Below are positions 7,860 to 39,502 of a stretch of DNA of 39,706 nt, piece by piece. The notes beneath the pieces are model-generated. The model was given only the letters and a program-made list of their open reading frames with translations, ran no database searches and was not told the DNA's origin. The first letter of the stretch is position 1, and each line of letters starts with the position of its first letter. The position numbers were made by a program, and so were the translations under genes. The stretch spans positions 1 to 39,706 of the forward strand of contig CAIYET010001098.1 of the NCBI GenBank assembly GCA_903925285.1, in the 5' to 3' direction. The stretch comes from Candidatus Hydrogenedentota bacterium (GTDB lineage: Bacteria; Hydrogenedentota; Hydrogenedentia; Hydrogenedentales; SLHB01).

Positions 7860-8453
7860 CTACGCGATGTTGCAGCGTTTCTCATACTCGGCGATTCTAT
7901 CTTCACGACGTAGCGTCAAACCAATTGGGTCCCAGCCGTTGATCATGCACTCTTTCTTGAAGGGATGAATGTCGAAGGGGATGGCTTCGCCATCCGGCTT
8001 GACGACACGTTGCGCGGGCAGATTGATTGTCAGTTGGTAGCCGTCCCGCGCGCGGACTTCCATGAACAACCGTTCGACGACGTCACCGGGCAACACGATG
8101 GGCAACAGACCGTTGTTGAAACAGTTGTTATAGAAGATGTCCGCGAACGACGGCGCGAGAACGCAACGGAAACCATAGTTATCCAGCGCCCACGGCGCAT
8201 GCTCGCGCGACGAGCCGCAGCCGAAATTGTCCTTGCTCAGCAAGATGGACGCGCCTTTGTATCGCGCCGCGTTCAGCTCGAAATCGGGATTCTGCGAACC
8301 GTCCGGCATGTAGCGCCAATCGAAGAACAAGAAGTCCTCGTATCCCGTGCGCTCGATACGTTTGAGAAATTGTTTTGGGATAATCTGATCGGTATCCACG
8401 TTCAGCGCTTCGAGCGGCGCTACGATGCCCGTCAATATGGTAAACGGTTTCAT
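7860..8453 (-). CDS. leuD: 3-isopropylmalate dehydratase small subunit
   Basis: 197 aa, against about 200 in the family. It is the swivelling small subunit that pairs with LeuC to isomerise 2-isopropylmalate to 3-isopropylmalate in leucine synthesis, in the cytosol. Diagnostic stretches are [16 protein letters not shown] near the N-terminus and the substrate-specificity loop [14 protein letters not shown], where the second Ser of GSSRE is the catalytic base in the family. GAGGAG is 8 bases before the ATG. It follows leuC by 21 bases in one operon. Confidence 0.97.
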
Positions 8454-8474
8454 GAATAATCTCCTCTACCGGCC

Positions 8475-10336: not shown

Positions 10337-12595
10337 TCAAGCCTTCCTCAACAAGTTCAGCGCGGCGCCGGCCTTAAACCACTCGATCTGGCCTTCGTTG
10401 TATGAATGATTCGCATCGAGACGCTCAACGGTTCCATCGGCGTGATGTAAGACTATCGTCAACGGCACATCGGGCGTGAACCCGGTCAGGCCGAGGATAT
10501 CGATCGCGTCGTCTTCCCGGACGCGGTCGTAATCGGCCTTGTCCACGAAGGTCAGCGCGAGCATGCCCTGCTTCTTGAGATTCGTCTCGTGGATGCGCGC
10601 GAAGGACTTGACCAGGATCGCGCGCACGCCCAGGAAACGCGGTTCCATCGCCGCGTGTTCGCGCGAACTGCCCTCGCCGTAATTCTCGTCGCCCACGACG
10701 ACCGAGCCGACGGCTGCGGCCTTGTAGGCGCGTTGCGTCGCCGGGACCGGACCGTATTCGCCGGTCAGTTGGTTCTTGACCTTGTTCGTCTCACCGTTGA
10801 ACGTGTTTACCGCGCCGATCAAACAGTTGTCGGAGATGCGGTCGAGATGACCGCGATACCGCAGCCATGGCCTCGCCATCGAAATATGGTCCGTCGTACA
10901 TTTGCCCTGAATCTTGATGAGGAGCTTGAGGCCCGTCAGATCACGGCCTTCCCATGCGGGGAACGGTTCGAGCAACTGCAAGCGTTCGGAGTGGGGGGCA
11001 ACCACGACTTCGACGTGGCTGCCGTCCTCGGCGGGCGGCCGATAGCCGGTCTCCGCGACCGCGAATCCCTTCGGCGGCAACGCAACGCCTTCTGGCGGAT
11101 CGAGCCGCACTTCGACGCCGTCTTCGTTGACCAACGTGTCCGTCAACGGGTTGAAAGTCAGGCGTCCGGCAAGCGTAAACGCCATCACGATTTCCGGCGA
11201 CGCGACAAACGCGTGCGTCTTCGGATTGCCGTCGTTGCGTTTTGCAAAGTTGCGGTTGAACGACGTGACGATCGAATTCGCTTCGAGCTTCTCCGCGCCG
11301 GGACGCTTCCATTGGCCAAGACATGGACCGCACGCGTTCGCGAGCACTTGGCCGCCGACCGCTTCGAACGCCGCGAGTTGGCCGTCGCGCGCCACCGTGC
11401 AACGCACCTGCTCCGAGCCGGGCGTGACGATCAACGCCGTCCGCAGTTTCAGTTTCTTCGCAACGGCCTGCCGCGCCAGCGACGCCGCGCGGTCGAGATC
11501 CTCGTACGACGCATTCGTGCACGAGCCGATCAACCCCGCGCTCAATGGCGCAGGGTATCCACTCTCGCGCACGGCTTCCGCGAAGCGCGAGATCGGCCAC
11601 GCCGCGTCGGGCGTGAACGGGCCGTTGACATGCGGTTCGAGCGTGGACAAGTCAATCTCGATGACCCGGTCGTAGTATGCGCCCGGATTCGCGTAGACCT
11701 CCGCGTCAGCGCGCAAATGCTCCGCGACACCGTTCGCCAATGCGGCCACCTCGGCGCGGCCTGTCGCGCGCAAGAAGTCGGCCATGTGCGCGTCGTACGG
11801 GAACACAGACGCCGTCGCGCCGATTTCCGCGCCCATGTTGCAGATCGTCGCCTTGCCCGTACACGAGAGGCTGTCCGCGCCCTCGCCGAAATATTCGACG
11901 ATTGCGCCCGTCCCCCCTTTGACCGTCAAGAGGCCCGCGAGCTTCAAAATGACGTCCTTCGGCGCGGTCCAGCCGCTCAGCGCGCCAGTCAATTTCACGC
12001 CGATGACCTTCGGAAACTTCAGTTCCCACGCCATGCCCGCCATCACGTCCACGGCGTCCGCGCCGCCCACGCCCACGCCGATCATGCCGAGGCCGCCCGC
12101 ATTCGGCGTGTGCGAATCCGTACCGATCATCAGCCCGCCCGGGAACGCGTAGTTCTCGAGAATGACTTGATGGATGATCCCCGCGCCCGGTTTCCAGAAC
12201 CCGATGCCGTACTTGTTCGAGACCGACGCGAGAAACGCGTAGACCTCACGGTTCATATCGAGCGCCTTCGCAAGATCCTGTGCTGCGCCCGAATCCGCGA
12301 CGATTAGGTGATCGCAATGGACCGTCGTCGGCGCGGCCACCCGCGCCTGGCCCGCCTGTATAAACTGCAACAGCGCCATCTGCGCCGTCGCATCCTGCAT
12401 CGCCACGCGGTCCGGCGCGAAATCCACATACGACTCGCCCCGTACAAAAGCTCCCGATGCCTCGCCACCGAAAAGATGCGCGTACAAAATTTTCTCGGCA
12501 AGCGTCAATGCCTTGCCTGTTACACCGCGCGCCGCCGCCACCCGTTCCGGCAAAGCCGCATACACCTGTCCAATATGCTCGAAATCGAATATCAT
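10337..12595 (-). CDS. Aconitate hydratase, mitochondrial-type
   Basis: 752 aa. It interconverts citrate and isocitrate via cis-aconitate in the TCA cycle. The sequence closely follows the mitochondrial ACO2 type rather than AcnA/IRP or AcnB, for example [29 protein letters not shown] and [19 protein letters not shown]. The [4Fe-4S] ligands are Cys359 (IGSCTN) and Cys422/Cys425 (ACGPC), and the swivel-domain catalytic loop [15 protein letters not shown] is present. The ATG at 12595 matches the family N-terminus; only a weak AAGGTG lies about 13 bases upstream. It is upstream of leuCD on the same strand, but the intervening element probably makes it a separate unit. Confidence 0.96.
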
Positions 12596-12755
12596 TTTTT
12601 CGCCACACCTTATGCTCGATGAGTAGAGAGGGCCGGAACGGCGGGGAGTCATTCCAGAACACCGAAGGCCCGATACCGGAAACACTACCCGACACGACGA
12701 AAGATTTCAAGCCGTCGGGCTGACACCAGAAGAACGCCGCCGAGGTCCGCGCACG

Positions 12756-21067: not shown

Positions 21068-22662
21068 GCGCCTCCATCCTGCTTTTGGAGCCGCGTGCGG
21101 ACGTAGTCCTGAATACTCTCGAAAATGGTCTGGGCCTTTAGGTCGATGCCTTCGTTCTTCATGTGGCAGATGTCCCCAAAATAAAACGCGCCGTCGTTGA
21201 AACGCTCCGCAACGGGAATATACATCATTTCGGTGTCTTTGCACATCGTGCGGACTTGCGCGTTGAAGGTCTGGAGGCTGCGCCAGTAGGTCGAAAACGT
21301 CACGTAGCGTCCGCCCCAACTCTGTTCGCACGACCAATCGTAGTAGGCGCGTTCGATGCGCGACAGCTTGCGGATATCCGGAGATGCGAAACTGCACATG
21401 GCCATCGGAACGCCGCGCTTGGCGAAATAGGCGCTCAATGCGCGCAGGTTCGTGAAAACCTCCTTGTCGAGGTCCGCGGCCATTTCGGTCTCCGATGGGA
21501 GTAGCCAGCGGTTGAAATAGTAGTTGGCAAAACGGGAATGGCGTAGCGTCTTCACCCACCATTTCGCTTCATGGATCCAGGTGGGGCACAACCGATGGCA
21601 GATGTCGTTCACGCCATTGTAGTATATGACGAAGTCCGGTTGGAGCGCCCAATAGTCCGGCGCGCGCATCCATTCGCTCATCGAGGACATGCCGGACAGC
21701 CCGCAGTTCACGACTTCGACGGCGTTTGCGCCAAAGACGGCATGCAGTCTTCGCTCGAGGAGATTGGGATACGTCATTGCATTCGTATCGCCCTCTTCCG
21801 TGGTCGAGCCGCCGACGCATACGATACGAAACAGGCCCTTCGGCTTGGGGATGACCACGTCATCGTCCCGGAACCCCACGTTGTTGATCCAGAAGCGCCC
21901 ATTGGGGCTTACCACGTGTTTCTTGTAGGCCAGGAACGGCAAGTCCCACAACGATTCCGCTGGAACGGGCGGCTGGTTCGCCTTTTCAACATCGATGAAG
22001 AGCGTAACGTTGGATATGGCCCCATCGGCTCCCTTCACGGGATAGAAAAGGACGGACTTGGTCGGTGAACCGGCGCTCGCATTGGCATCGAAGGGCCGCA
22101 GGGCCGCAGTGCCGGAGTCGAACGCCTGCCGCAGCCCGGGCTGCAAGGCATCGGCACGCGCTTGTCCCAGCGCGTCCGCCAAACGCAGATTCCCTGTGGG
22201 CGTTTTTTCCGCATCGCCGGGAAAGAGCGGTTCGCTGGAATAGTGCGCGATAATCCGTCCATCGCGATCGCACACGAGGACAGCGACGTTATAGGTCGAA
22301 GCAAACCGCCCTCGATCCTGTTCGCCGAGTTCGGCGAAGAACACCGCCCGGCGCGTACGATCTGCAAGGGCGTCCGAAACCGGCGCCTCTTCCGAACGTA
22401 CTCCTTCCATGGGCATTTTGGCGGCTTCGGTCAGGGCGGCGGAACCGGTCCAGGCGCCGGGCGGGGCGGGCGTATTGGGCCAAGAGGTCTTGTTGCCGAA
22501 TCCTGTCACATAAGGGTTTTTGCGCTCGATATACCCACGGTGCACATCGAACGCGACCTCGAGCACCGCACAGGTCATGCCCAACCAGAGCAATACCACA
22601 ACGGCTCGAAAAGCCCATCGCGGCATGCGCCGCGCAAGCGTCTGCGGGGAAGCCGGACTCAT
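21064..22662 (-). CDS. Membrane-anchored SGNH/GDSL-type hydrolase
   Basis: 532 aa. A TM anchor (about residues 16-37) is followed by an extra domain of about 170 residues (60-230) with sensor-like features (VAVLVCDRDGRIIAHYS), then the SGNH core. Block I is VCVGGSTTEEG with nucleophile Ser286, block III is YYNGVNDICHR, and block V is ICHMKNEGIDLKA with the catalytic His. The family removes or transfers acyl groups on glycans and peptidoglycan. With a GT-C glycosyltransferase directly upstream (ATGA overlap), a role in acylation or deacylation of an extracytoplasmic glycan is likely. The ATG at 22662 is preferred because it overlaps the upstream stop and gives a normal N-terminus. Confidence 0.85.
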   Translation of the reverse strand: MSPASPQTLARRMPRWAFRAVVVLLWLGMTCAVLEVAFDVHRGYIERKNPYVTGFGNKTSWPNTPAPPGAWTGSAALTEAAKMPMEGVRSEEAPVSDALADRTRRAVFFAELGEQDRGRFASTYNVAVLVCDRDGRIIAHYSSEPLFPGDAEKTPTGNLRLADALGQARADALQPGLRQAFDSGTAALRPFDANASAGSPTKSVLFYPVKGADGAISNVTLFIDVEKANQPPVPAESLWDLPFLAYKKHVVSPNGRFWINNVGFRDDDVVIPKPKGLFRIVCVGGSTTEEGDTNAMTYPNLLERRLHAVFGANAVEVVNCGLSGMSSMSEWMRAPDYWALQPDFVIYYNGVNDICHRLCPTWIHEAKWWVKTLRHSRFANYYFNRWLLPSETEMAADLDKEVFTNLRALSAYFAKRGVPMAMCSFASPDIRKLSRIERAYYDWSCEQSWGGRYVTFSTYWRSLQTFNAQVRTMCKDTEMMYIPVAERFNDGAFYFGDICHMKNEGIDLKAQTIFESIQDYVRTRLQKQDGGA

Positions 22663-25253
22663 TCGGTCCGCCCCGAATCGCGTCGAAGCCGCTCGATAAC
22701 CGGCGTGGGGATATTGCCGCCCATCGTCTGCAAGCGCTTCAGTTCCGTCCACGCCGAGTCGTAGTCTTTCCGTTCGAGAAGCGCCGAGACGAACGGCCCA
22801 ATTTTAGTCCGCAACGCCGGGTCGAGTTCAAACGCCTTTCGCATCGAGACCAGCGCGCCCATATCGTCGTTCTTGGCAAGCAACGCCACGCCGATACCCA
22901 GATAAAGTTCGGGGACTTTCGGCGCGGTCTTGAGCGCCTCGCGAAGCGCGGCCAACGCGCCGTCGATATCGCCCGATTCGAGTTGGGCCATTGCGCGCGT
23001 GAACACGGCGTTCGGCTGTTCGGTCGACGCCGCCGGTGGCGCTGGCTCTGCGGGGATGGGGGCGGTATTGGCCGCGACCGGTTTTTCGTCGGCAGGGGCG
23101 GATTCCGGCGTCGGGGCGTCTTTGAGCGCCATAGCTTCGCGCAATGCGTCGCGCGGGCGCGCATCGTTTGGATCGAGCGCGATGGCCTTCTGGAACGCGT
23201 CGATTGCCTTGTCGAAATCCCGCTTGCCGACGTACGCCTTGCCGAGGCAGGTGACAGCCCATCCGTATTTAGGATCGATGTCGAGCGCCTTGCGAATCGC
23301 CGCTACCGCGCCGTCGTAATCGCCTTTGTCCGTCAACAGCGTCGCGATATTGACGTGCGACCACAAGTAGTCCGTTGCATTGAGTTGGACCGCTTTTCTG
23401 AACGCCGCCAACGCGTTATCGGCGTCGCCCTTGTCCTTGTAGGCCATGCCGAGATACGAATAGGCGCGCGAGTAATCGGGGGCAATATCGATGGTCTTTC
23501 GCGCGGTGGCGATTGCCGTCTCGTAGTCCTTGACGCGCCAGAATTCCATACCCATGTCGCCGAACTCGGTCGCCGCCGCATCCGGAAGTTTAGGTTTCAT
23601 GGACGCGTGGTTGGGTTTGCCTGCGACCTTGTAGACCAGGACGTGCTGAATGCCGGGGAACTCCGCCATCGAGAAGGTCAGTCCGCGCGACGTGAGTTCA
23701 CGCTCGAGGTCGGCCCAAGGCCCTTGAGAAAAATAGAACGTCTCGTACGAGATCCACACACACGGACGCCCCGCGCCGGGTATCTTGGGCGGGCGTTCGA
23801 GGTCGAGATAAAACGAAGCCTGCTCGGCCAGCACTTCCGGCGTCTTCGCGTACGTCAGCACGTTTTCGATCGGGCCGAGGTTGTAGGCGAAGACGCGCTT
23901 CCACATCCAGTCTTGGACCAGCAACAGATCGTCGGGTTGAACGTTTGCGCGGATATGCTGTCCAGCGGCGAGCCATGACGTCCGCTGCGGTTCGCCGACA
24001 ACCAGGAGCATCTCGTACGTGTACAGGAGGCAGAGCGCTGCGATGGCGGTCACACGGATCGGCCGCCAGCGAATCGAGGCAATGGCCATGCCAATCAACA
24101 GATACGCGGCGAGGGAACCATAGGTTGTATAGCGTGGGAAGATGACTGGACGCCAGACCACCGACGCGGTATAGAGCACGAGCGGCGGCACGAGCCAGAA
24201 TATGACGAGAAAACAGTACCATTGCCACAGCGGTGGCGGCGTTGCGCGCTTGCGGGCCTTGAGCCAATCCAGCAACATCTTGATGCCGAGCGCTACAATC
24301 GTCGCGATGAAGACCCACATCGCGCCGCGCCCAATTGGAACCATGAGACTTGTGAGTGCACGGGCATACTGCGGCTGGAGTATGGTTTCCAGGGCCGTTG
24401 GTGTACCGCGCAACTGGTACGTCAAACCGACGAAGTCGTCCGCGAACAAGTCGCCGATGAACTCGGTGCGTGTCGGCACCTTTTGCCAGGCAGCCGTTAT
24501 TTCCGGGGACCAGAACTGGATCGTGGTCAGGAATAGGACGAACGGGATGGCCATCGCGACGTGGCAGGCCATCCAGATGCACAAGGCTCTGAATCTGCGC
24601 CAATAGAAGACGACGAAGAATCCGCCTTCGATCGCCGGTACCAACGCGCCGAAAGTATGGGTCCAAACAAGGATTACGTTCACGGCGATATGCAGAATCC
24701 ACCAACGCTTACCGCCGTCGCGCAGGAGCCGGAATAGCGTGTACGCCGACGCCAGCGCCAGCAGCGTCAAGTAAACGTACATGTGGATTTCCTGCGCGAA
24801 ATGGCGATGAATCGGCGACATCGCGACCAGGAACGCCGCGATAAGCCCCGTCGTCGCGCCCTGCAATTCGCGTCCGAAGACGTAGATGAGCGGGATGATA
24901 AGCAGTCCCATGAACACGGATAGCATGCGCTGGCTCAAGGGCGAGTGGCTGACATAGGCGTTCCAGAAATACTCGATCGAGTCGAACACCGGCATTGTGG
25001 CCGGATCGATCTTGTGGTTGATCCGGAGGAACTCGAACCAGCTTTGCGCTGGTTGATGGAACACCTCTTGTTGCCAATGTTCGTAATACGGCGATTGCGT
25101 ATACGCGTCCGGGGCGTGGAGGAAGACAAGACTCGTAAACTCATCGAACCAAGCCGATTCCTTCTGAATCCCATGGAGCCGCAGTCCCGCACCCAACGCC
25201 ATGATGAGCACGAGTGCTGCTACGCACACAAACCTGTTCTTCTTGTTGTCCAC
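22659..25253 (-). CDS. GT-C (PMT/ArnT-like) glycosyltransferase fused to TPR repeats
   Basis: 864 aa from the GTG at 25253. About ten TM helices occupy residues ~10-450. The first extracytoplasmic loop has the acidic pair of GT-C enzymes (SAWFDEFTS), and AAFLVAMSPIHRHFAQEIHMY is typical of family-39-like transferases that use polyprenyl-phosphate sugars. After a soluble stretch come about four TPR units (for example AYSYLGMAYKDKGDADNALA), a Pro/Ala-rich linker and two more TPR-like units. The start is chosen because GAGG lies 10 bases before the GTG, and a TTGACA promoter has its -10 over the upstream ATG at 25289, so transcription should begin after it. It is the first gene of the operon with the SGNH hydrolase and the two-TM protein. 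Confidence 0.85.
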   Translation of the reverse strand: MDNKKNRFVCVAALVLIMALGAGLRLHGIQKESAWFDEFTSLVFLHAPDAYTQSPYYEHWQQEVFHQPAQSWFEFLRINHKIDPATMPVFDSIEYFWNAYVSHSPLSQRMLSVFMGLLIIPLIYVFGRELQGATTGLIAAFLVAMSPIHRHFAQEIHMYVYLTLLALASAYTLFRLLRDGGKRWWILHIAVNVILVWTHTFGALVPAIEGGFFVVFYWRRFRALCIWMACHVAMAIPFVLFLTTIQFWSPEITAAWQKVPTRTEFIGDLFADDFVGLTYQLRGTPTALETILQPQYARALTSLMVPIGRGAMWVFIATIVALGIKMLLDWLKARKRATPPPLWQWYCFLVIFWLVPPLVLYTASVVWRPVIFPRYTTYGSLAAYLLIGMAIASIRWRPIRVTAIAALCLLYTYEMLLVVGEPQRTSWLAAGQHIRANVQPDDLLLVQDWMWKRVFAYNLGPIENVLTYAKTPEVLAEQASFYLDLERPPKIPGAGRPCVWISYETFYFSQGPWADLERELTSRGLTFSMAEFPGIQHVLVYKVAGKPNHASMKPKLPDAAATEFGDMGMEFWRVKDYETAIATARKTIDIAPDYSRAYSYLGMAYKDKGDADNALAAFRKAVQLNATDYLWSHVNIATLLTDKGDYDGAVAAIRKALDIDPKYGWAVTCLGKAYVGKRDFDKAIDAFQKAIALDPNDARPRDALREAMALKDAPTPESAPADEKPVAANTAPIPAEPAPPAASTEQPNAVFTRAMAQLESGDIDGALAALREALKTAPKVPELYLGIGVALLAKNDDMGALVSMRKAFELDPALRTKIGPFVSALLERKDYDSAWTELKRLQTMGGNIPTPVIERLRRDSGRTE

Positions 25254-25287
25254 GATACAATCGCCTCGTTGAAATTCGATGCGGCTC

Positions 25288-25317
25288 ATCTTAGTGGCCG
25301 CTTCTGGACTATGTCAA
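25288..25317 (-). promoter_or_regulatory. Promoter of the GT-C/SGNH operon
   Basis: Minus strand: TTGACA (25317-25312, perfect), 18 bases, TAAGAT (25293-25288, 4/6). Transcription should start near 25281, downstream of the in-frame ATG at 25289, which decides for the GTG start at 25253. Confidence 0.55.
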
Positions 25318-29243: not shown

Positions 29244-29936
29244 CTAGGCTTTGGGGCCGAGACCGGCGATGCATTGATCTTCGCGAACGACTTTTCGGGG
29301 GCCGCCGTCGAGACTGGCGGACCAGTCTTGGGGTGTGGCGGTTACTTCGAACGTGTCGAGAATTCCGAGTGCTTTGGCGCGGTCGTAGATGAGTTGCCAG
29401 CCGCATTCGAGGTCTTCGCGGACTTCGCATTTGCCGTCGCGCGAACCGGCGCAGGGGCCGTTGAGGAGGCGTTTGGCGCATCGGGTAAGCGGGCATATCC
29501 CTGCAAATTCGCCCAGGCGGCACGCGCCGCAGCCGGCGCATTTCTCCGTCCAGACGCCTTGCGATTCGAGGATGCCGATGAATTGCGTATTGAGGCCGGG
29601 ATAGACAGGCGTGTTGGGAAAGCGTTCGGCGAGGGCTTGGACGCCGGCGCCGCAACCGAACGAGCAGATGGCGTCGTAATCGCCAACGCGGGGCGCGAGG
29701 GCGTCGACGAAGGCGTCCTCGCATTGGCGCTCGATGGTACACTCGTCGACGACAACGTTGCCGCGTCCGATCAGTTTGAGCGACATGCGAAGGGCCGAGC
29801 CGAGAATGCCGGTCTCGCGTTCGCCGCCGGCCATACAGACGGTGACGCAGGTGCCGCATCCAACGAGGAGTACGCGGTCGTGATTCTTGATCATATCCCG
29901 GATTTCGGGAACTTTCTTTCTATCTGCAACTATCAT
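29244..29936 (-). CDS. metV: MetV-type methylenetetrahydrofolate reductase C-terminal (Fe-S) protein
   Basis: 230 aa, matching the MTHFR_C-like family (MetV). Cysteine motifs are seen at residues 27, 30 and 34 (GCGTCVTVC), in DECTIERQC, SFGCGAG and CAGCGAC, and in the diagnostic CPLTRCAKRLLNGPC followed by GSRDGKCEV. In the acetogen Moorella, MetV binds the flavin subunit MetF and links methylene-THF reduction to HdrABC-MvhD. Here no metF follows: the next gene downstream is convergent. The ATG has AGGAGA 8 bases upstream and overlaps the mvhD stop (ATGA), so it is the last gene of the operon. Confidence 0.9.
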   Translation of the reverse strand: MIVADRKKVPEIRDMIKNHDRVLLVGCGTCVTVCMAGGERETGILGSALRMSLKLIGRGNVVVDECTIERQCEDAFVDALAPRVGDYDAICSFGCGAGVQALAERFPNTPVYPGLNTQFIGILESQGVWTEKCAGCGACRLGEFAGICPLTRCAKRLLNGPCAGSRDGKCEVREDLECGWQLIYDRAKALGILDTFEVTATPQDWSASLDGGPRKVVREDQCIAGLGPKA

Positions 29937-30415
29937 CGTGTTTCTCCTGCGATGGCTTTTTCGGCTTCGACGCGAAGTCCTTCGATAGCGTGTTCGACGT
30001 GAATCTTGTCCCGGCGCAGCGGGCTTAGTCCGAATCGCGCGATTCGTGCGTTCATCTCGGCGACGATTTCGGCGAAACGTGTGCCTTCGGCTGACGACAG
30101 GTTGAACATTTCAAGGCGTTCAGGTTCGATCCCTATTTCCTTGAGCAACTGCTTGGCGCGTTCGACGCGGCGGCGTGCGCGGAGATTACCTTCCTGGAAG
30201 TGGCAGCCGCCTTCAAGGCAGCCCGCCACGATGACGCCATCCACGCCGCGCTCGAATGCGGCGAGCAGGTAATTGACTTCGATCTTGCCCGTGCAGGGCA
30301 GGCGCAACACGCGCACGGTACCGGGATACTGGAGCCGCATGGTTCCGGCCAAATCTGCGGCGGCGTACGCGCAGTAGTGGCAACAAAATGCAACGATGAT
30401 GGGATTGTCGTCCAT
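29933..30415 (-). CDS. mvhD: MvhD-type iron-sulfur electron-transfer subunit
   Basis: 160 aa of the MvhD/FrhD-like family: VAFCCHYCAYAAADLAG (Cys11, 12, 15), LPCTGKIE and GCLEGGCHFQEGN carry the cysteines for the [2Fe-2S] centre. In known complexes MvhD docks onto HdrA and passes electrons between a dehydrogenase or hydrogenase module and the HdrA flavin. No MvhAG-type hydrogenase genes are present in the window, so the donor should be a different module (see hdrA). It starts 4 bases after the hdrA stop and overlaps metV by 4 bases. Confidence 0.93.
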   Translation of the reverse strand: MDDNPIIVAFCCHYCAYAAADLAGTMRLQYPGTVRVLRLPCTGKIEVNYLLAAFERGVDGVIVAGCLEGGCHFQEGNLRARRRVERAKQLLKEIGIEPERLEMFNLSSAEGTRFAEIVAEMNARIARFGLSPLRRDKIHVEHAIEGLRVEAEKAIAGETR

Positions 30416-30419
30416 AAAA

Positions 30420-33400
30420 CTATTCCAATCCTTCATGCCAGCGCGGTGGCGCGATTCCGACGTGTTCGGGATAAACGGCTTCCACGGTTTCCTCGGTCGA
30501 ATTCCCGATGAGCAGGAAATCGAGCGCCTGGAGGATTTGCGAATCGAGGTAATTTCGTAATTCGATGGCCTTGGCCGGGCATTCGGCGGTACAGCTTCCG
30601 CAGCCCATGCAGACAACCCCTTGGATCTCCGCCTTGTTGTTGTTACCGATGGCTGGGGCGTTGTAGGGGCAGATATGGATGCAGGTCATACACGAGATGC
30701 ACTTGTCGGGGTCGACCCACGCGATCTGGCTGCTGATCGGAATGGTCTTGCGCGACAGGACCGACGCGGCGCGTCCGGCGACGGCGTTGGATTGCGAAAT
30801 GGTCTCGCCGATGCTCTTGGGTGCGTGGGCCGTGCCGCAGAGGAAGAGGCCCTCGCTGGCGAAGTCGACGGGCCGCAACTTCACGTGGGCTTCGAGGAAG
30901 AAGCCGTCGGCGTTGAGGGGTACGCGAAGCAACTCGGAGATTTCCTGGCGGTCGGCGCGCGGGATCATCGGGGCGGCCAGGACGAGCATGTCCGGGATCA
31001 TCTCGATGGTTCTGCCGAGGGCCGGCTCGTATACGCGAATGTGGCCGTTGCCGTCGAGTTCGGGCGGCTGATCAGGTTCGTAACGGACGAACAGGACGCC
31101 TTGCTTTCGGGCCTCGCGATAGGCGGCCTCTCGGAACCCATAGGTTCGCATGTCGCGGTACAGGACCATAATTCGCGCCTTCGGATAGCGTTGGCGCAAC
31201 AGCAGGGCGTTTTTCACGGCCGTGGTGCAGCAGACCCGGCTGCAATAAGGGCGCTCGTCGTTGCGTTGCTCGACGCACTGGATCATCACGACGGTCGCCT
31301 TGTCGGGCAGCGTGACTTCGTCGCGGCTCAGGCGTTCGGACAAATCCAACTGCGTCAGTACCTTGTCGTTCGTGCCGTAGCCGTAGGTTTGCGGGACGTG
31401 CTCGGTGGCGCCGGTGGCGACGACGACGACTCCGTGTTTAATCTTGCGCGCGTTTCCGTTCGACGTTATCTGCGAAGTGAATGCCCCGATATGGCCTTCT
31501 ACTTGCGAGACCTTTGCATTCAGGTGGACGGAGATGAGGGGACTGGCGTTAACCTTCTCGACGGTCTCATCGAGAAACGCTTGGACGTCGACGCCGTCGA
31601 GGGTACGGTGGACTCGTCGCGCGGTGCCGCCGAGCGAGTCTGACTTCTCGACCAGGTGAACCGGAAAGCCCTGGTCCGCGAGGGCGAGTGCGGCCGTCAT
31701 GCCCGCGATGCCGCCGCCGATAATCAGCGCGGCTTTGTCGACAGGTGCGGTCTCGTCTTTGAGGGGCAGCAACTGCGCGGCGCGCGCGGCGATCATACGG
31801 ACGAGATCGAAGGCTTTCTCCGTGGCCGCTTCGGGGTCGCCGGCATGGACCCATGAACATTGCTCGCGGATGTTGGCCATTTCGAGGAGATACGGGTTGA
31901 GACCCGCGTCGCGCAAGGTATCTCGGAAGATCGGCTCATGGGTACGCGGGGTGCATGATGCCACGACTACACGATTGAGCCGGTGTTCGGCGATGTGTTC
32001 CTTCATACGGACCTGGCTGTCGTCGGCGCAGGTGTATACGGTATGTTCGGCGTAGACCACATGCGGAAGCGTCCGGGCGCGCTCGACGACTTGTGCGACG
32101 TCGACGACGGACGCGATGTTGCTCCCGCAGTGACAGACGAACACGCCAATCCGCGGCGCTTCGTCGGTGACGTCGCGTTCCGGCGGATACTGCTTGGTCC
32201 GGACCAGCGTGCCGCGGGCGGGCGCGAGGAGCGCCATGGCACGCGAGGCGGCGGCGCTGGCCTGCATAACTGTGTCGGGAATGTCTTTTGGCTCCTGGAA
32301 TGCGCCGCCCACGAATATGCCGGGGCGCGACGTATCCAGTGGCCGCAATTCCGCCGTGTCTGCGAAGCCCCACCTGTTCAGGGCGATGCCGAGGGCCGAC
32401 GCCTGATCGAGCAGTACCGCGCTCGGCTCGAAACCGACCGACAACACGACCATGTCGAACTCTTCTTCGACCTGCTTTCGCTCGGGGCCGAAATAGGCCA
32501 GCGCGAGGTTCTTCGTATCGGGCATTTCGAATGTACGCGAGACGAACGAGCGCACGTAACGGATGCCCTGGTTCTTGGCCCGTTCGTAGTAGCGGTCGAA
32601 ATCCTTGCCGAACGCGCGGAGATCGAGGAAGAAAATCGCAATCTCCAAATCGGGATCATGTTCCTTCGCTAGGATCGCTTCTTTGGTGGCGGCCATGCAG
32701 CATACGCTCGAGCAGTACTCGTTGTCGCAGCCCATGTCGCGCGACCCAACGCATTGAATGAACGCGAGGCGTTTCGGGGCTTTGCCGTCCGAAGGCCGGA
32801 CGATGTGGCCTTGGGTCGGACCCGAGGCCGAGAGAATTCGTTCGAACTGGACGTTGGTGACGACGTTCTGTGCATGTCCGAAGCCAAACTCGCCGCGTTG
32901 CTCGCCGTCGAAGGCATCGAATCCCGGCGTGAGCACAACGGCTCCCACGTCGAATTCGAGCGTCTTGGCCACTTGGTCGTGACAAATCGCGCCCGCTTTG
33001 CAGGCCTCGACGCATCGCTGGCAATCGCAGCACATGCCGCAGTTCAGACAGCGCCGCGCTTCCTGTTGGGCTTCCTCGGCGGTATAGGTATGCTCGATCT
33101 CGCGAAAGTCCTTGAGGCGATCGACGATCGGTTGTTCCGTCTCAGGTACGCGCTCCGATTCATCGAGCTTCTTCTTGAGTTTTTTGAGATCCTCTTTGGA
33201 AAAGGGATTGGCGCGTTCTGCGGGTTTATGAAGACCCTTGTCCGCAGGTTCGCCGGAAAGATAATTGTCGATACCCTTCGCGGCGCGCTTGCCGTGGGCG
33301 ATGGCGTCGATGACGCTCGATGGCCCCGCGACCACGTCGCCGCCCGCGAACACGCCTGCCTTCGAGGTAACCATCGTTACGTCGTTCGCGGCGATCGTGC

Positions 33401-34949
33401 CCCAGCGCGTCTGTTCGAGTCCAAACGCTTTCGCGAGCTTGCCGTCGACGGACTGGCTCACGGCCGGAATGAGCGTATCGAGCGGAATGACGAATTCGGA
33501 ACCTTCGATGGGCACGGGACGTCGACGTCCGCTGTCGTCCGGCTCGCCCAGTTCCATCCGCTTGCACCGGAGCGTTGTCAACGTTCCGTTTTCCACGACG
33601 GCCCTGATCGGCGCGGCCAGGTACTGAATGTCGATGCCTTCCGCTAGCGCCGCGTCGATTTCGAGCGCATCTGCCGGCATCTCTTCCCGAGTACGGCGGT
33701 ACAGAATCGTGACCTTCTGGGCGCCAAGCCGGACGGCGGTCCGCGCCGCGTCGATTGCCGTGTTACCGCCGCCTACGACTACTACCCGCTTGCCGACGCT
33801 AGGCGCCTCGCCCAACGCATACTGGCGCAGGAAATCGGTACCGTGGATGACACCCTTTGCATTCTCGCCGTAAATATTGAGTTTCAGACTCTCATGCGCG
33901 CCCGTGGCGATGAAGATCGCGTCGAACCCGCTCTGGATCGAATCGGCGGAAATGTCCTTGCCGACGGATGTGGCTGTCTTGAACTCGACGCCGAGCGAAC
34001 GTATCCCCGCCACGTCTCGATCCAGAATATCTGCGGGCAGGCGGTAGTCGGGAATCCCGACTGACAACATACCGCCCAGCACCGGCAACGACTCGAATAC
34101 GGTTACTTTGTGGCCTGCCAACGCCAGGAAGTGCGCCGCCGACAGCCCGGCAGGCCCGGAACCAACAATAGCGACCGTTTTTCCCGTAGGTGAAATTTCA
34201 ACGGGCGCGGTAAGCGTCGGAAACAGGTCCATAGCGAACCGTTTGAGGCTGCGGATGTTGATCGGTTCGTCGACGGCCCCTCGGTTGCATTTCAGTTCGC
34301 ACGGGTGAAAGCACACGCGCCCGCATATCGAGGGAAGCGGGTTTTCGCGACGGATGACGTCGGCGGCTTCCTCGAACCGGCCCGCGGCGATCAGGGCCAC
34401 GTAAGCCTGTACGCTCGAATCGATCGGGCAGCCCGAACTACATACCGCGCGCCCGCGCTTGAGGATCACGTACGCGTTCGGCGCGGCTTGGGCATAAACC
34501 CGATCAATGGCCTTACGCTCGCCGAGTCCGGCGTCGAATTGACTTTGGACCTCGATCGGGCATACCGCCGTGCAGTCGCCGCACATCGTGCATTTGTCGA
34601 TATCGACGTATCGGGGACGTTGGACGACCGTCGCCTTGAACCGGCCCGGCTCGCCTTCGAGCTTGACGACGTCGGCCATAGTAAACACGTCGATGTTCGG
34701 GTCGCGCATGCACTCGACCAGCTTCGGCGAAATGATGCACGTAGCGCAGTCGCCCGTCGGAAAAGTCTTGTCCAGGCGGGCCATGCCACCGCCTACCGCT
34801 GGCTTGTCTTCAATCAAGTAGACGCGGAAACCGGCAGCCGAGAGATCGAGCGAGGCCTGAATCCCGGCCACGCCCGCGCCGCATACCAGGACCGCGCCTG
34901 TAGGCTGCTCAGATTCGGTTTCGGACATCGAAGGAGTTTTGCTTTCCAT
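30420..34949 (-). CDS. hdrA: Composite HdrA: HdrA-like module interrupted by an NfnB/GltD domain, fused to a second full HdrA
   Basis: 1509 aa, against about 650 for ordinary HdrA. Order of parts: FAD motif CGAGVAGI (23-30) with DCATCIISPKLVE; [4Fe-4S] Cys120/123/126/130; an inserted GltD/NfnB-type region (about 155-570) with Cys170/174 and Cys209/213/217/221, FAD motif VGSGPAG (262-268), NAD(P)H motif VVVGGGNTAID (390-400) and FAGGDVVAGPSSVIDAI; a Cys-rich site CLNCGMCCDCQRC (634-646); the rest of the first HdrA fold with QCVGSRD and YCSSVCC; then a complete HdrA (from 934, GVFVCHCGSN; FAD motif GGGIAG at 1078-1083; QCVEQRN; YCSRVCC); and a C-terminal two-cluster ferredoxin (Cys1417-1458). 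That predicts three flavins, at least five Fe-S clusters and an internal NAD(P)H site, all cytosolic. It starts 2 bases after hdrB. Confidence 0.93.
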   Translation of the reverse strand: MESKTPSMSETESEQPTGAVLVCGAGVAGIQASLDLSAAGFRVYLIEDKPAVGGGMARLDKTFPTGDCATCIISPKLVECMRDPNIDVFTMADVVKLEGEPGRFKATVVQRPRYVDIDKCTMCGDCTAVCPIEVQSQFDAGLGERKAIDRVYAQAAPNAYVILKRGRAVCSSGCPIDSSVQAYVALIAAGRFEEAADVIRRENPLPSICGRVCFHPCELKCNRGAVDEPINIRSLKRFAMDLFPTLTAPVEISPTGKTVAIVGSGPAGLSAAHFLALAGHKVTVFESLPVLGGMLSVGIPDYRLPADILDRDVAGIRSLGVEFKTATSVGKDISADSIQSGFDAIFIATGAHESLKLNIYGENAKGVIHGTDFLRQYALGEAPSVGKRVVVVGGGNTAIDAARTAVRLGAQKVTILYRRTREEMPADALEIDAALAEGIDIQYLAAPIRAVVENGTLTTLRCKRMELGEPDDSGRRRPVPIEGSEFVIPLDTLIPAVSQSVDGKLAKAFGLEQTRWGTIAANDVTMVTSKAGVFAGGDVVAGPSSVIDAIAHGKRAAKGIDNYLSGEPADKGLHKPAERANPFSKEDLKKLKKKLDESERVPETEQPIVDRLKDFREIEHTYTAEEAQQEARRCLNCGMCCDCQRCVEACKAGAICHDQVAKTLEFDVGAVVLTPGFDAFDGEQRGEFGFGHAQNVVTNVQFERILSASGPTQGHIVRPSDGKAPKRLAFIQCVGSRDMGCDNEYCSSVCCMAATKEAILAKEHDPDLEIAIFFLDLRAFGKDFDRYYERAKNQGIRYVRSFVSRTFEMPDTKNLALAYFGPERKQVEEEFDMVVLSVGFEPSAVLLDQASALGIALNRWGFADTAELRPLDTSRPGIFVGGAFQEPKDIPDTVMQASAAASRAMALLAPARGTLVRTKQYPPERDVTDEAPRIGVFVCHCGSNIASVVDVAQVVERARTLPHVVYAEHTVYTCADDSQVRMKEHIAEHRLNRVVVASCTPRTHEPIFRDTLRDAGLNPYLLEMANIREQCSWVHAGDPEAATEKAFDLVRMIAARAAQLLPLKDETAPVDKAALIIGGGIAGMTAALALADQGFPVHLVEKSDSLGGTARRVHRTLDGVDVQAFLDETVEKVNASPLISVHLNAKVSQVEGHIGAFTSQITSNGNARKIKHGVVVVATGATEHVPQTYGYGTNDKVLTQLDLSERLSRDEVTLPDKATVVMIQCVEQRNDERPYCSRVCCTTAVKNALLLRQRYPKARIMVLYRDMRTYGFREAAYREARKQGVLFVRYEPDQPPELDGNGHIRVYEPALGRTIEMIPDMLVLAAPMIPRADRQEISELLRVPLNADGFFLEAHVKLRPVDFASEGLFLCGTAHAPKSIGETISQSNAVAGRAASVLSRKTIPISSQIAWVDPDKCISCMTCIHICPYNAPAIGNNNKAEIQGVVCMGCGSCTAECPAKAIELRNYLDSQILQALDFLLIGNSTEETVEAVYPEHVGIAPPRWHEGLE

Positions 34950-34951
34950 AT

Positions 34952-35833
34952 CTATGACTTACCCGCCGTCGCGCCTTGGGCGGACAACGACGACGCGCTG
35001 ACAGTAAGGGCATCCATGCCAAGCGTGTTTGCAGGCAGACCCAACGCCAATCCCAAGAGTTGCGTGATATAGAGTACCGGCATGTCGGGAAGATCGCCTC
35101 GATTTTTCTTGGCTTCCGATTGACGGAAATCCAGATTGAGCTGACAGAGCGGACAGGCCACGACAATACATTCCGCGCCCGCCCGATGCGCCATCGACAA
35201 GAGCCGATAACCAAGGCGGTTGACGACGCCGGTCTTGCTGATCGAAAGGCTTGCCCCGCAACATTCGGTCTTGAGCGGCCAATCGACGGCTTCGGCGCCT
35301 GCCGCCTTGACCAGGTCGTCCATGCACGTCGGGTGCTCGGCATCGTCGAAGGCGACGATCTCCGGCGGACGCGACAGCAGACAGCCGTAATACGAGGCGA
35401 CACGGAGTCCCTTAAGAGGCGTCCGAATCCGCTTGCGGAGTTCGCGAACGCTGAAGTCGTTGACTAGGACATCTAGTATGTGACGTACTTTCACGCCGCC
35501 GTCGTACGGTTTTTCGGTGATCCGCTCGGCGCGTTCTCGCTCGCTAGGATCGGTGTTGACCTTATGATTGGCCGTACGCAGCCGCGCGTAACACGATGCG
35601 CACGCCGTGAGGACTTCCGAGAAACCCGCCGCCTGCGCCTTTTGGAGGTTGATCACGGGCAACGCCACGGCCAGCGAGGCGTTGCTCGAGTGGGCCGGCG
35701 TGGACCCGCAACAGACCCAGTCGGGTATGTCCACCAACTCGATATCCAGGGCCTTGCATACCGCGCGCGTGGACTGGTCGAAATCCCACGCCGTCGATTC
35801 GAGGCTGCATCCGGGGAAAAACGCGTACTTCAC
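34952..35833 (-). CDS. hdrB: HdrB-type subunit (two CCG domains)
   Basis: 293 aa with two complete CCG motifs: Cys9, Cys41-Cys42-Gly, Cys78-x-x-Cys81; and Cys151, Cys191-Cys192-Gly, Cys227-x-x-Cys230. In methanogen HdrB these hold two non-cubane [4Fe-4S] clusters that form the disulfide-reducing active site, so the full set suggests the subunit is catalytically competent. The GTG start (35833) overlaps the hdrC stop (GTGA) and has GGAGGAG upstream. Being bacterial, its disulfide or other substrate is unknown; it need not be CoM-S-S-CoB. Confidence 0.95.
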   Translation of the reverse strand: MKYAFFPGCSLESTAWDFDQSTRAVCKALDIELVDIPDWVCCGSTPAHSSNASLAVALPVINLQKAQAAGFSEVLTACASCYARLRTANHKVNTDPSERERAERITEKPYDGGVKVRHILDVLVNDFSVRELRKRIRTPLKGLRVASYYGCLLSRPPEIVAFDDAEHPTCMDDLVKAAGAEAVDWPLKTECCGASLSISKTGVVNRLGYRLLSMAHRAGAECIVVACPLCQLNLDFRQSEAKKNRGDLPDMPVLYITQLLGLALGLPANTLGMDALTVSASSLSAQGATAGKS

Positions 35834-36417
35834 CGTTTCTTCTCCTCCTCTTGAGCCCGTTTGAACGCCCGGCGCACGGCCTTGACGCTGGGCGAGCGAT
35901 GGGGCAAGAAGTTCAACTTGTGCTTCGCAAGCATCTTGGGCGCTTTGTCCATGTCTGCGAACAGATCGCGACTGGCGAGTTTGTAGAGGGCCATCATACC
36001 GAGTTCGTATACCCGGCCATGCCAACGTACGCTCGTCAGAAACGCTTTATTGAAACTCCTGCCGCGCCGGTCGCGCGAAGAAATCTTGCGCTCGACAGCC
36101 ATCATCCGCAACGTGTCCATGACCGCCGCGATATCGAGTCCCATAGGACAGCGCGCTGTGCATGCCTCGCAGGATGCGCAGGCCCAAATGGCTTCGGATT
36201 CGAGGATCTCGTCTTTTGCGCCCAGTTGGATCAGGCGCATGATTTGACTCGATAACAGGTCCATATCGGGACCGATGGGACATCCCGACGAACATTTGTG
36301 GCATTGAAAACACGTGCCGACCGCGACGCCGCTACGGCGTTCGACTTCGGTCAAAAGCGCATCGTCCGTCCATTCCTGCGACGTTGGAAACGTCGCGCTA
36401 CTCTGCGTGTCGTTCAT
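35830..36417 (-). CDS. hdrC: HdrC-type dicluster ferredoxin subunit
   Basis: 195 aa with two CxxCxxCxxxCP motifs (Cys36/39/42/46 and Cys80/83/86/90), each for one [4Fe-4S] cluster. HdrC relays electrons between HdrA and HdrB. A helical basic C-terminal part follows (about 105-195), with an EEEKKR end. It begins 5 bases after the stop of the gltB-like gene, with GGTGAG as binding site inside that gene's end, and overlaps hdrB. There is no TM segment, so it is of the soluble HdrABC type rather than the membrane HdrDE type. Confidence 0.95.
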   Translation of the reverse strand: MNDTQSSATFPTSQEWTDDALLTEVERRSGVAVGTCFQCHKCSSGCPIGPDMDLLSSQIMRLIQLGAKDEILESEAIWACASCEACTARCPMGLDIAAVMDTLRMMAVERKISSRDRRGRSFNKAFLTSVRWHGRVYELGMMALYKLASRDLFADMDKAPKMLAKHKLNFLPHRSPSVKAVRRAFKRAQEEEKKR

Positions 36418-36422
36418 AACGA

Positions 36423-39107
36423 TTACTCACCCACCTCGTCCGTTGTTATTTCGATCTTGTCCTTCTTGAGCGGCATCACCTTCTGGTAGACCTGTTCTGG
36501 CGTTTTGATAACCCCGTCCACGGACAGGAGGTCGCGCTCGATTTGTATGCCGAAGAGCCGCTCGTTCTCGCGCAGATACGGCAAAATCAGTTTCCAATCT
36601 TCCGCCGCGAGCGGTGCGTACATGCCGCCGTTCAACTGATCTTCGACCAGCGTCCGGTGCGGGTCGCGCACATAGACCGCCCCGCCGGACGCCAGCGACA
36701 GAAGATTGCCGCCGCCATAGGGCATGTCCAACGGAAGCACGTTCCCGTCCTTGTCGAACTGGATGCCATTCACGATGACGAACCCGCCCCCGTCGAGCGG
36801 ATCGCCCGCCATGAACGACTCGGCCAGGAAATCGAGCGCGGTGCCGTTGATAACCACGCGAGGTTTGCCGACTGCGTTGATCACCGGACGTCCTGCGGCG
36901 TTGCCCATGACGTAGACCTCGGCGCCTTTTGCGCCATAAAGGAAGGTCTGGCCGACGTCTCCGTACACAACCATTTTCCCGCGTTTCGCGATCTGGCCCA
37001 ATTGGTCCTGCGCGTTGCAGTGGACGTGTACCTCGATGCCGTCCATGCCCGAACCGAGATAATCGCCGGGATTGTCGTAGCAGTCGACGCGTAGGCCGTC
37101 GGTTGCGGGTCCAAAGCCTGCAGCGTGAAAACGCGTTCCGCGCGAGTTGTAATGGACGAGGCGCCGCCAGCCCAAGTTATATGCGTCCACCGCAAGACGC
37201 GCGTCGCAGTTATCGCCTTGAGGTGCGAAGCCGCGCGCGTCGATGAGCAACGTCCGTTCCTCATTTTGCGGCGCGCGCAGTTGGCCGCGCGTATCCCACG
37301 TGATTCGGCGATAGATGCTTTCCCGTGCATCGTTGAACAAGGGTTGCCGTGCGAAGATCTTTTCGAGACCGTCGCGCAGGATCGTATACACGGAACTGCG
37401 TTTCTTCGCGCCCGTAGGATAACGACGGTCGATTGCCCGCGTCAGAACCTCGATCCCGGCCTGCGGCGCGCGGACCGCTGTCTTGACGGCCAGATCGGCC
37501 ACCACGTTGCGCAGACGGTCGAAATTCATACCAGCCAACGCGTCGCGCAAATACGCGAAGAGTCCGTCGGCATCGCCGTCGCGAACCGCGTTTTCAACGG
37601 CGGCCAAGTCGTCCGCGTCCGGCGTCGAGATGCTCGGCGGAATCGAGAGATCGCAATGGGCCTGATCCCGCCAAGTCGAGACCGGCACGCCGAATTTGTC
37701 GGTTGTCGAGAGACGATATCGCACGTCATGGCCGTTGTCGGCGGTATCGGGAACGACGTTAAAGAGGAACGCGCCCCCGTCGGTATAGCTGCCGCCCCGC
37801 GCGTTCCAGTACTGGTCCGCCACGGGCATAATACGGGGATCCTCGCTATTGAGACTGGCCAGAGTCGCGTCAATGGCCTGTTTCTCCGAGCAAATCAGGC
37901 CCACCGACACGTCTTTTCCTTCTTGCAGCGCGAAGACTTGGGGGCGCAACATGGCGGTGTCGGTGATCCCGAGGAGTTGGAATCCTTTCGTCTCGCTCAG
38001 CGTCCGGGCAATGATGAAGAACCAGGGACCGTCCGGCGAGCCGTGCATATGCGACGCCTGAATCTGGCGATAAATGTGCTGCTTGGCCGCAGGAAGGCGG
38101 TCAAAATCAAGCTCGGCAGTCGGCGCGAGCGCCTCGATGATATATTCGACCGGATACTTGTAGACGCGGTGCATGAGGTCGAACAGCATGACCGAGACCT
38201 CGGTGTCGGTGAGGAATCTCGGAAAAAGATTGCGTTGCGCAAGGTATTCGCACACCGAAACGTAATTCGCGAAATCGCCGTTATGGACAAGTGCCTCGTT
38301 CATGCCGATAAATGGATGCGCCCCGCCCGGATGCCAAACGCGGCCACGGGTGGGATAGCGTTGATGGGCAATCCAGACGTGGGCGCGCACGTCCTCCATC
38401 TTATAGTACTGTACCGACGCCTCGGCAAAGCCCACGATCTTGATGATGATCAAGTTGCGCGCATGCGACATGACGAACGCGCGCTTTTCGCCCAGCGACG
38501 CGTAGAACTCGTCGTTCAACTTCACCGAGTTCTGGAATACGAACTCGTCCTCGATTTCCCGTTCGCTTAGAACGGTGAAATGCGCCCCGCATATCACCTT
38601 CGATAGACCCTTCTCGGACGCGAACCGTTCGAGTACATCTTTCTTGACGCGAACGAAATAGCGCGCCACGTCGGGAGGCCGCATTTCGAGCAGAGGCACG
38701 TCGCGATAGTCATCCACCGTCGGGATCAGACCGCCGTGGCTGATGTCGAAATATGGTTCGATATACTTCTTCTCGACATCCTCGCGCGCGGTGGGATCCA
38801 GCAGCGAAATCTGCAAGATGTAGCTCTCTTCGAGCACGTTGCGCGATACGCCCAAATCCTCCGGCGCGAGACCGCAGGCCGCGATACCGCCGCCTTTGCC
38901 ATTGCCCCGGTTGCGCATTTGGATGGACGGCTCGTAAATGTGTTTGCCGCGCACGGGAACCGTACACGCGAATCCGGTCACGCCGCACCCGCCTTCGGCC
39001 TCAGGCGACTTCTGGTACCAGTCGCCCTGCGGACGGAGGTCGGCGCGAGCGCGAATCATGGTCTCGACCCGATCACGAACTGCGGCGCGGGTATCAATCC
39101 TGTCCAT
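36423..39107 (-). CDS. Glutamate-synthase-like protein: class II glutaminase + GXGXG domain, lacking the FMN domain
   Basis: 894 aa. The glutaminase domain has its nucleophile Cys at residue 41 (GGCGVTGFAC), implying removal of a ~40-residue propeptide as in GltB; HQRYPTRGRVWHPGGAHPF and LVHNGDFANY are substrate-pocket motifs. The C-terminal part (about 640-820) is a right-handed beta-helix of the GXGXG/GltB3 type (for example GDVGQTFLYGAKGAEVYVMG and INGTALDFLAESFMAG). The FMN/3Fe-4S glutamate synthase barrel that normally lies between them is missing, replaced by ~200 residues of other sequence. The ATG at 39107 has AAGGA 5 bases upstream; the ATG at 39113 overlaps that site. It is the first gene of the hdr operon. 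It may supply ammonia, or be a structural remnant. Confidence 0.88.
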   Translation of the reverse strand: MDRIDTRAAVRDRVETMIRARADLRPQGDWYQKSPEAEGGCGVTGFACTVPVRGKHIYEPSIQMRNRGNGKGGGIAACGLAPEDLGVSRNVLEESYILQISLLDPTAREDVEKKYIEPYFDISHGGLIPTVDDYRDVPLLEMRPPDVARYFVRVKKDVLERFASEKGLSKVICGAHFTVLSEREIEDEFVFQNSVKLNDEFYASLGEKRAFVMSHARNLIIIKIVGFAEASVQYYKMEDVRAHVWIAHQRYPTRGRVWHPGGAHPFIGMNEALVHNGDFANYVSVCEYLAQRNLFPRFLTDTEVSVMLFDLMHRVYKYPVEYIIEALAPTAELDFDRLPAAKQHIYRQIQASHMHGSPDGPWFFIIARTLSETKGFQLLGITDTAMLRPQVFALQEGKDVSVGLICSEKQAIDATLASLNSEDPRIMPVADQYWNARGGSYTDGGAFLFNVVPDTADNGHDVRYRLSTTDKFGVPVSTWRDQAHCDLSIPPSISTPDADDLAAVENAVRDGDADGLFAYLRDALAGMNFDRLRNVVADLAVKTAVRAPQAGIEVLTRAIDRRYPTGAKKRSSVYTILRDGLEKIFARQPLFNDARESIYRRITWDTRGQLRAPQNEERTLLIDARGFAPQGDNCDARLAVDAYNLGWRRLVHYNSRGTRFHAAGFGPATDGLRVDCYDNPGDYLGSGMDGIEVHVHCNAQDQLGQIAKRGKMVVYGDVGQTFLYGAKGAEVYVMGNAAGRPVINAVGKPRVVINGTALDFLAESFMAGDPLDGGGFVIVNGIQFDKDGNVLPLDMPYGGGNLLSLASGGAVYVRDPHRTLVEDQLNGGMYAPLAAEDWKLILPYLRENERLFGIQIERDLLSVDGVIKTPEQVYQKVMPLKKDKIEITTDEVGE

Positions 39108-39146
39108 TTTCATCCTTCACCAATCTAAAACACCTATGCGTGGCAC

Positions 39147-39205: not shown

Positions 39206-39451
39206 TCACGCACGAACAACCATGTTTTCATAAAGAAACTCAGGGGCCAGATCCGCGTCATTCTCCCACACGAGAGTCTGAAGCTCTGGGTCCACTCGGA
39301 ACCGCCGAAAAAGCTCCTTGTCCTTCAAGGGGCCAAAGACTTCTCCTTCCAGCTCCGGCTCAAGGTCGATTTCGCCTTCAGCACCATCATTGAACCGAAG
39401 CCTGACCACGTAATCATGGACATATTCTACTTCTCGTACGTGTGGAAACAT
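39206..39451 (-). CDS. DUF2442 domain protein
   Basis: 81 aa: VVRLRFNDGAEGEIDLEPEL, FGPLKDKELFRRFRVDPE and VWENDADLAPEFLYE are the DUF2442 core of the same type as the gene at 26095. GGAG lies 7 bases before the ATG at 39451; the in-frame ATG at 39457 is too close to that site. No DUF4160 partner is seen on its 5' side, where the palindromic element begins about 50 bases away. It precedes the hdr operon by 98 bases on the same strand and could share its transcript by chance. Confidence 0.88.
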   Translation of the reverse strand: MFPHVREVEYVHDYVVRLRFNDGAEGEIDLEPELEGEVFGPLKDKELFRRFRVDPELQTLVWENDADLAPEFLYENMVVRA

Positions 39452-39479
39452 GCTCATACTCCAAAGGCTCGATCCGGTT

Positions 39480-39500
39480 GATCCCTCTTTCTTAGGGATC
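39480..39500. repeat. Short hairpin abutting the palindromic element
   Basis: GATCCCT and AGGGATC pair around a 7-base loop and end 2 bases before the element's terminal repeat. It is not present beside the other copy, so it is probably part of the host flank. Confidence 0.4.
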
Positions 39501-39502
39501 AT

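Follow-up and report, generated by a model that had tools for sequence, protein, structure and literature searches.

A putative split glutamate synthase encoded among Hdr and methylenetetrahydrofolate reductase genes in Candidatus Hydrogenedentota and other bacteria

The window analyzed here, a 39,706-nucleotide contig from a Candidatus Hydrogenedentota bacterium, carries on its minus strand a gene for an 896-residue protein in which a glutaminase domain is joined through a helical linker to a GXGXG beta-helix; hdrC, hdrB, hdrA, mvhD, and metV follow (Table 1). The first-pass annotation placed the fusion gene at 36423-39107, starting from the second ATG; the full ORF extends to 39113, so that the residue it numbered Cys41 is Cys43. 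Elsewhere on the minus strand, the window encodes an aconitase-family system (7860-9887) split into large (8475-9887) and small (7860-8453) subunits, with a single-chain aconitase-family system close to it (10337-12685), and an 876-residue protein (22659-25289) combining a PMT_2-like glycosyltransferase domain with many TPR repeats, adjoined by GDSL-lipase-family ORFs.

Table 1. Features of the fusion gene and the Hdr/Met genes in the window
Feature	Coordinates	Strand	Evidence
metV, MTHFR C-terminal family, DUF5981	29244..29936	(-)	
mvhD, FlpD domain; true start probably further in	29933..30616	(-)	Pfam, NCBIfam
hdrA, 1509 aa, Moorella-type, two HdrA flavin regions	30420..34949	(-)	Pfam, NCBIfam
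GltD-like NAD(P)H/FAD module inside HdrA, ~residues 164-567	33249..34460	(-)	match to 6s6s_G
hdrB, two CCG domains; GTG start at 35833 predicted from homology onset	34952..35833	(-)	Pfam, NCBIfam
hdrC	35830..36417	(-)	Pfam, NCBIfam
gltB1-gltB3 fusion: glutaminase, helical linker, GXGXG beta-helix	36423..39113	(-)	
GXGXG beta-helix, ~residues 620-835	36609..37256	(-)	Pfam 671-831; hhalign
All-helical linker, ~residues 495-600	37314..37631	(-)	AlphaFold2 pLDDT near 90, helices 500-589
Glutaminase domain, ~residues 43-455, boundary approximate	37749..38987	(-)	Pfam, NCBIfam, AlphaFold2 model, fold search
Codon of Cys43, predicted N-terminal nucleophile	38985..38987	(-)	Cys in 28/28
Predicted propeptide, residues 1-42, ending EAEGG before Cys43	38988..39113	(-)	cleavage predicted from GltB

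Pfam recognizes GXGXG in the fusion protein (residues 671-831, E 2.8e-9) and, slightly below its cut-off, GATase_6 (residues 243-311, E 8.8e-6); it finds no Glu_synthase domain. NCBIfam gives partial matches far under the cut-offs: the glutaminase side hits glmS and purF, and the helix side hits formylmethanofuran dehydrogenase subunit C; with only such sub-cut-off matches, no curated family of these two libraries covers the whole protein. The beta-helix aligns with the C-terminus of canonical GltB (hhalign, E 8e-7). A PDB search by sequence alone returned no match. In an AlphaFold2 model made from 28 sequences (mean pLDDT 70.9), the N-terminal part is alpha/beta, residues 500-590 are confidently all-helical, and the C-terminal part is beta-rich; in a fold search with this model, the sole PDB matches at E≤0.001 were large chains of glutamate synthase, five in all (E 6.6e-7 to 8e-4). 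The glutaminase core at the N-terminus is modeled with low confidence, so its assignment comes mainly from sequence. The helical linker occupies the place of the two barrel domains of canonical GltB, and the protein lacks the one-chain GltB layout of glutaminase, central, synthase, and helix domains together. The earlier description of a glutaminase joined to a GltB3-type beta-helix, with no FMN barrel in the chain, is thus borne out by Pfam and the fold search. A degenerate FMN barrel within residues 420-640 is ruled out; the region is a helical bundle in the model (500-590 all-helical, pLDDT near 90) and gives no synthase-domain alignment.

The active site is conserved at every residue checked. 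All 28 sequences share Cys43, Arg69-Gly70, Arg252, Thr255, Asn278-Gly279, and Asp303 without exception, and we take these residues to be the glutaminase pocket from general knowledge of GlmS, PurF, and GltB. Residues E38, E40, G41, and G42, directly ahead of Cys43, are equally invariant (28/28), and by analogy with GltB a propeptide of 42 residues is predicted to be cleaved there, in agreement with the first-pass reading of a processed-type class II glutaminase with its Cys behind about 40 residues. The spacing from Arg-Gly to the second Arg is 182 residues, compared with 181 in canonical GltB. An N-terminal Cys with GltB-type pocket residues (28/28) and a GXGXG beta-helix module (Pfam, hhalign) are both features of split, archaeal-type glutamate synthase (GltS).

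The synthase that would consume the ammonia was reported as absent, and it is a separate gene. Full-length relatives of the fusion protein, 57-82% identical, occur at 28 genome loci; at 26 of them gltB2 lies directly upstream of the fusion gene, and at the other two (L007 and L013) the contig begins at the fusion gene. GltB2 comprises two ferredoxin-like Fe-S motifs (2x4Fe-4S, Fer4) and an FMN barrel (PF01645, E 6.6e-84), the stand-alone FMN subunit with Fe-S ferredoxin region that characterizes split GltS. In full, the operon reads mvhD2-metF-gltB2'-gltB2-gltB1B3-(hdrC-hdrB)-hdrA-mvhD-metV; metF is placed differently in L014 and L019, and in several relatives no hdrCB was observed following gltB1-B3. 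In the window's genome, mvhD2, metF, gltB2', and gltB2 are on contig C186, the end of which truncates gltB2 (87% identical to the copy in locus L004) at residue 419; the window contig carries the remaining operon genes. No synthase gene lies in the window, as first noted, only because the contig stops 593 bases upstream of the fusion gene.

The two halves may adjoin, but they are on separate contigs (with no common words of ≥15 bases), and a DUF2442 gene (39206-39502, minus strand) stands directly upstream of gltB1B3, between it and the contig end; the final bases (to 39706) contain a palindromic word, CGACCCTGGAAGGGTCG, plus a near repeat. Gene and repeats probably mark a rearrangement, or an insertion separating gltB2 from gltB1B3. 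On C186 (L035, 4464-7117) a 415-residue gene without a Pfam match adjoins mvhD2-metF, and the opposite strand carries a URO-D family gene that may belong to methyl transfer. In L011 (2321-5020) the gltB1B3 frame is split in two, by a frameshift or a sequencing error.

GltB2 retains the MSFGS, TGEGG, K-Y-AQGAKPG, YS-ED, and GGTGA motifs, and a cysteine cluster at the site where canonical GltB binds its 3Fe-4S center. It departs from the full synthase-pocket set at two positions of SPPPHHDIYSIED, where Phe replaces His and Ser replaces Asp in every one of the 28 alignment rows (26 distinct copies; L001, L002, and L035 are the same gene); the His and Asp are kept by canonical GltB (5/5), clostridial split GltB2, and GlxD. 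With Phe and Ser there, the substrate of GltB2 may differ from the canonical one. It keeps 94 of 216 residues invariant in canonical GltB, compared with 71 for GlxD and 103 for clostridial split GltB2, and so shows no closer resemblance to the GlxD/MgsC-like synthase of N-methylglutamate synthase than to GltB. GltB2', encoded ahead of it, is without the AQGAKPG and YSIED motifs and keeps eight ferredoxin-region cysteines and a C-terminal cysteine cluster; its model (mean pLDDT 65.6) shows an FMN/flavin-type barrel, itself mostly at 80-97, that matches IMPDH, glycolate oxidase, and glutamate synthase (including 6s6s_A). In canonical GltS a truncated barrel forms the central domain, between the glutaminase and synthase domains (PMC8097209), and GltB2' appears to be its counterpart.

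The remaining operon genes resemble the Hdr-type MTHFR of Moorella and Sporomusa (MetVF-HdrCBA-MvhD), with which the system shares MetF, MetV, HdrA, HdrB, HdrC, and MvhD, co-located in one operon in relatives and divided between C186 (metF) and the window contig (hdrCBA, mvhD, metV) here. Moorella HdrA has a GltD insertion and a duplicated flavin domain (PMC9430772); in the window's HdrA the first of the two flavin regions contains an inserted module similar to the glutamate synthase small chain (6s6s_G, E 4.2e-65) and also E703 and K756, the Glu and Lys that serve as markers of bifurcation (PMC9430772). The GltD module is present at eight loci (window included) and NuoE/NuoF at 15 (L008, L012, L014-L020, L023, and L026-L030), the two occur together at none, and L004 has neither. 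At the NuoE-type loci, HdrA-N is fused to NuoE, the next genes encode NuoF and an HdrA whose N-terminus is NuoG-like, and this arrangement replaces the GltD insertion. This alternation of GltD and NuoEF beside the same gltB and met genes argues for an NAD(P)H-driven operon product.

The host genomes, metagenome bins whose labels may err, span about eight phyla by label: Hydrogenedentota, Deltaproteobacteria, Omnitrophota, Planctomycetota, Spirochaetales, Armatimonadetes, Fibrobacteres/Chitinispirillaceae, and Kiritimatiellota. In the window's phylum the full fusion protein was found in 4 of 68 genomes, and in five genomes compared the fusion proteins are 67-74% identical, the canonical GltBs 53-59%; this patchiness and high identity may point to lateral transfer. 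A long canonical GltB frame (≥1012 residues) is present in at least 18 of the 28 genomes, so the split enzyme is not simply the housekeeping GltS; where ordinary GltB exists it is a second, specialized enzyme. The window's genome (assembly 96% complete, 1133 contigs) yielded no canonical GltB, with PF01645 matches only on C186, and no further GltB1B3 copy. Acetyl-CoA synthase (PF03598) was found in 14 of 29 genomes, the window's not among them, which rules out the Wood-Ljungdahl pathway as sole context. Methyltransferase or corrinoid neighbors are likewise unsupported as a constant feature, the flanking genes being variable. Nitrogen genes directly precede the operon at only two loci, a type III glutamine synthetase gene in L019 and an NrpR-type regulator gene in L016; carAB follows it in L005.

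Taken as a system, the operon combines parts of several known ones. In archaeal and clostridial split GltS, GltB1, GltB2, and GltB3 are separate genes and GltB2 is likewise a separate ferredoxin-FMN-barrel protein (235.9 bits over residues 37-501 in the Subdoligranulum comparator L042, with GltB1- and GltB3-like genes nearby), whereas here the helical linker joins GltB1 and GltB3 in one chain, GltB2', a degenerate barrel protein, is present as well, and all of these genes are embedded in an MTHFR-Hdr operon. With bacterial NADPH-GltBD it shares the propeptide, the glutaminase residues and their spacing, synthase motifs, the GXGXG helix, and a GltD-like NAD(P)H module; it differs in having the domains on separate chains, the GltD module inside HdrA, and two residues of the SPPPHHD motif altered, and many of the genomes hold canonical GltB too. 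No glutamate synthase genes are described for the Moorella and Sporomusa clusters, in contrast to gltB2', gltB2, gltB1-B3, and a second mvhD here, and half of the present genomes are without acetyl-CoA synthase. In N-methylglutamate synthase (GlxBCD, L043), three separate genes encode the glutaminase-, GXGXG-, and GltB2-type modules; there is no fusion, no Fe-S region at the GlxD N-terminus, and no Hdr/Met gene, and GlxB is only weakly similar to the fusion protein (E 6e-4).

The fusion protein is probably the glutaminase and beta-helix subunit of a split, archaeal-type GltS that channels ammonia to GltB2 and draws NAD(P)H electrons via HdrA. Glutamine would be hydrolyzed at Cys43, once exposed by removal of the propeptide, and the ammonia would pass through an intersubunit channel, in a complex of the separate chains, to the FMN barrel of GltB2, which would reductively aminate a 2-oxo acid, most likely 2-oxoglutarate. 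GltB2' probably replaces the canonical central domain and would relay electrons via its Fe-S sites. Electrons would run from NAD(P)H through an HdrA hub (GltD or NuoEF module, MvhD, and Fe-S chain) to the glutamate synthase, the same hub supplying the methylenetetrahydrofolate reductase MetVF of the operon. The likeliest role is glutamate formation driven by NAD(P)H and coupled to the MTHFR-Hdr machinery, either by physical contact or through common electron carriers. A partnership with the Hdr complex, raised in the first-pass annotation, is favored at the genomic level, by strict gene order across phyla.

Because the chain carries no FMN domain, it had been proposed that the fold was reused as a scaffold or that ammonia went to another acceptor in the Hdr complex. 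With the fusion protein being half of a split GltS whose other half is the next gene, this puzzle mostly dissolves, and both ideas seem most improbable: glutaminase residues invariant in all 28 sequences and core motifs kept in GltB2 make a catalytically dead, scaffold-only role very unlikely, and a cognate gltB2 adjoining in relatives and present in the same genome leaves no need for an exotic acceptor. It is also conceivable, if quite improbable, that the same split amidotransferase makes another product, delivering ammonia or an amine to a different 2-oxo acid or to a C1/folate-linked acceptor, with MetF and MetV as pathway partner. The His-to-Phe and Asp-to-Ser substitutions in every GltB2, the constant MTHFR partner, the canonical GltB already in most genomes, and the use of the same three modules by N-methylglutamate synthase (mgsABC/glxBCD) would fit such a role. 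GltB2 nevertheless keeps more canonical invariants than GlxD and stands near clostridial split GltB2; the operon contains no gene identified as sarcosine-oxidase-like or GCV_T, and no methylglutamate dehydrogenase (sarcosine-oxidase-like) genes were recognized among annotated neighbors of the loci; and the glutamine synthetase and NrpR neighbors indicate nitrogen assimilation.

Simple co-transcription, with an independent ferredoxin-linked GltS that shares neither electrons nor contacts with Hdr/Met, is somewhat unlikely. GltB2 has its own ferredoxin domains, and L005 (548-5083) has, just upstream of its full operon, an additional, divergent GltB2'-GltB2-GltB1B3 cassette to which no Hdr genes belong; in L025, GltB2-GltB1B3 adjoins a His_biosynth (PF00977) gene, and a sister family without Hdr/Met genes may exist. 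Against independence, the Glt genes lie between metF and hdr/metV in an order constant across phyla, and pairwise distances of GltB2 and GltB1B3 correlate at 0.5-0.84 with those of other operon proteins (GltB1B3 with HdrB 0.84, MetV 0.69, and MetF 0.62), values without species-tree control. At the other extreme, the MTHFR-Hdr machinery could form a flavin-bifurcating supercomplex that has the glutamate synthase as a second terminal acceptor of electrons, and in which NAD(P)H oxidized at HdrA would feed both methylenetetrahydrofolate reduction and reductive amination; we regard this as unlikely.

Clusters of MetVF-HdrCBA-MvhD were known; for an MTHFR-Hdr-GltS operon, here seen across about eight labeled phyla, no description was found in the open-licence literature. 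A GltS rebuilt from separate parts (glutaminase-helix, truncated barrel, and full barrel) matches the canonical domain layout, and genome annotation can score such organisms as lacking glutamate synthase or as merely duplicating it. The existence of a second electron acceptor has been suggested, without its identification, for the Hdr-type MTHFR of Moorella and Sporomusa (PMC9430772; PMC7325909), and an operon that places a complete split GltS between metF and hdrCBA-mvhD-metV offers a testable candidate. If the supercomplex exists, it would provide, in these phyla, a concrete candidate for the acceptor left open in the Moorella complex, and one electron-splitting machine would be common to nitrogen assimilation and C1 metabolism. 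The operon itself directly links one-carbon to nitrogen metabolism at the level of genes.
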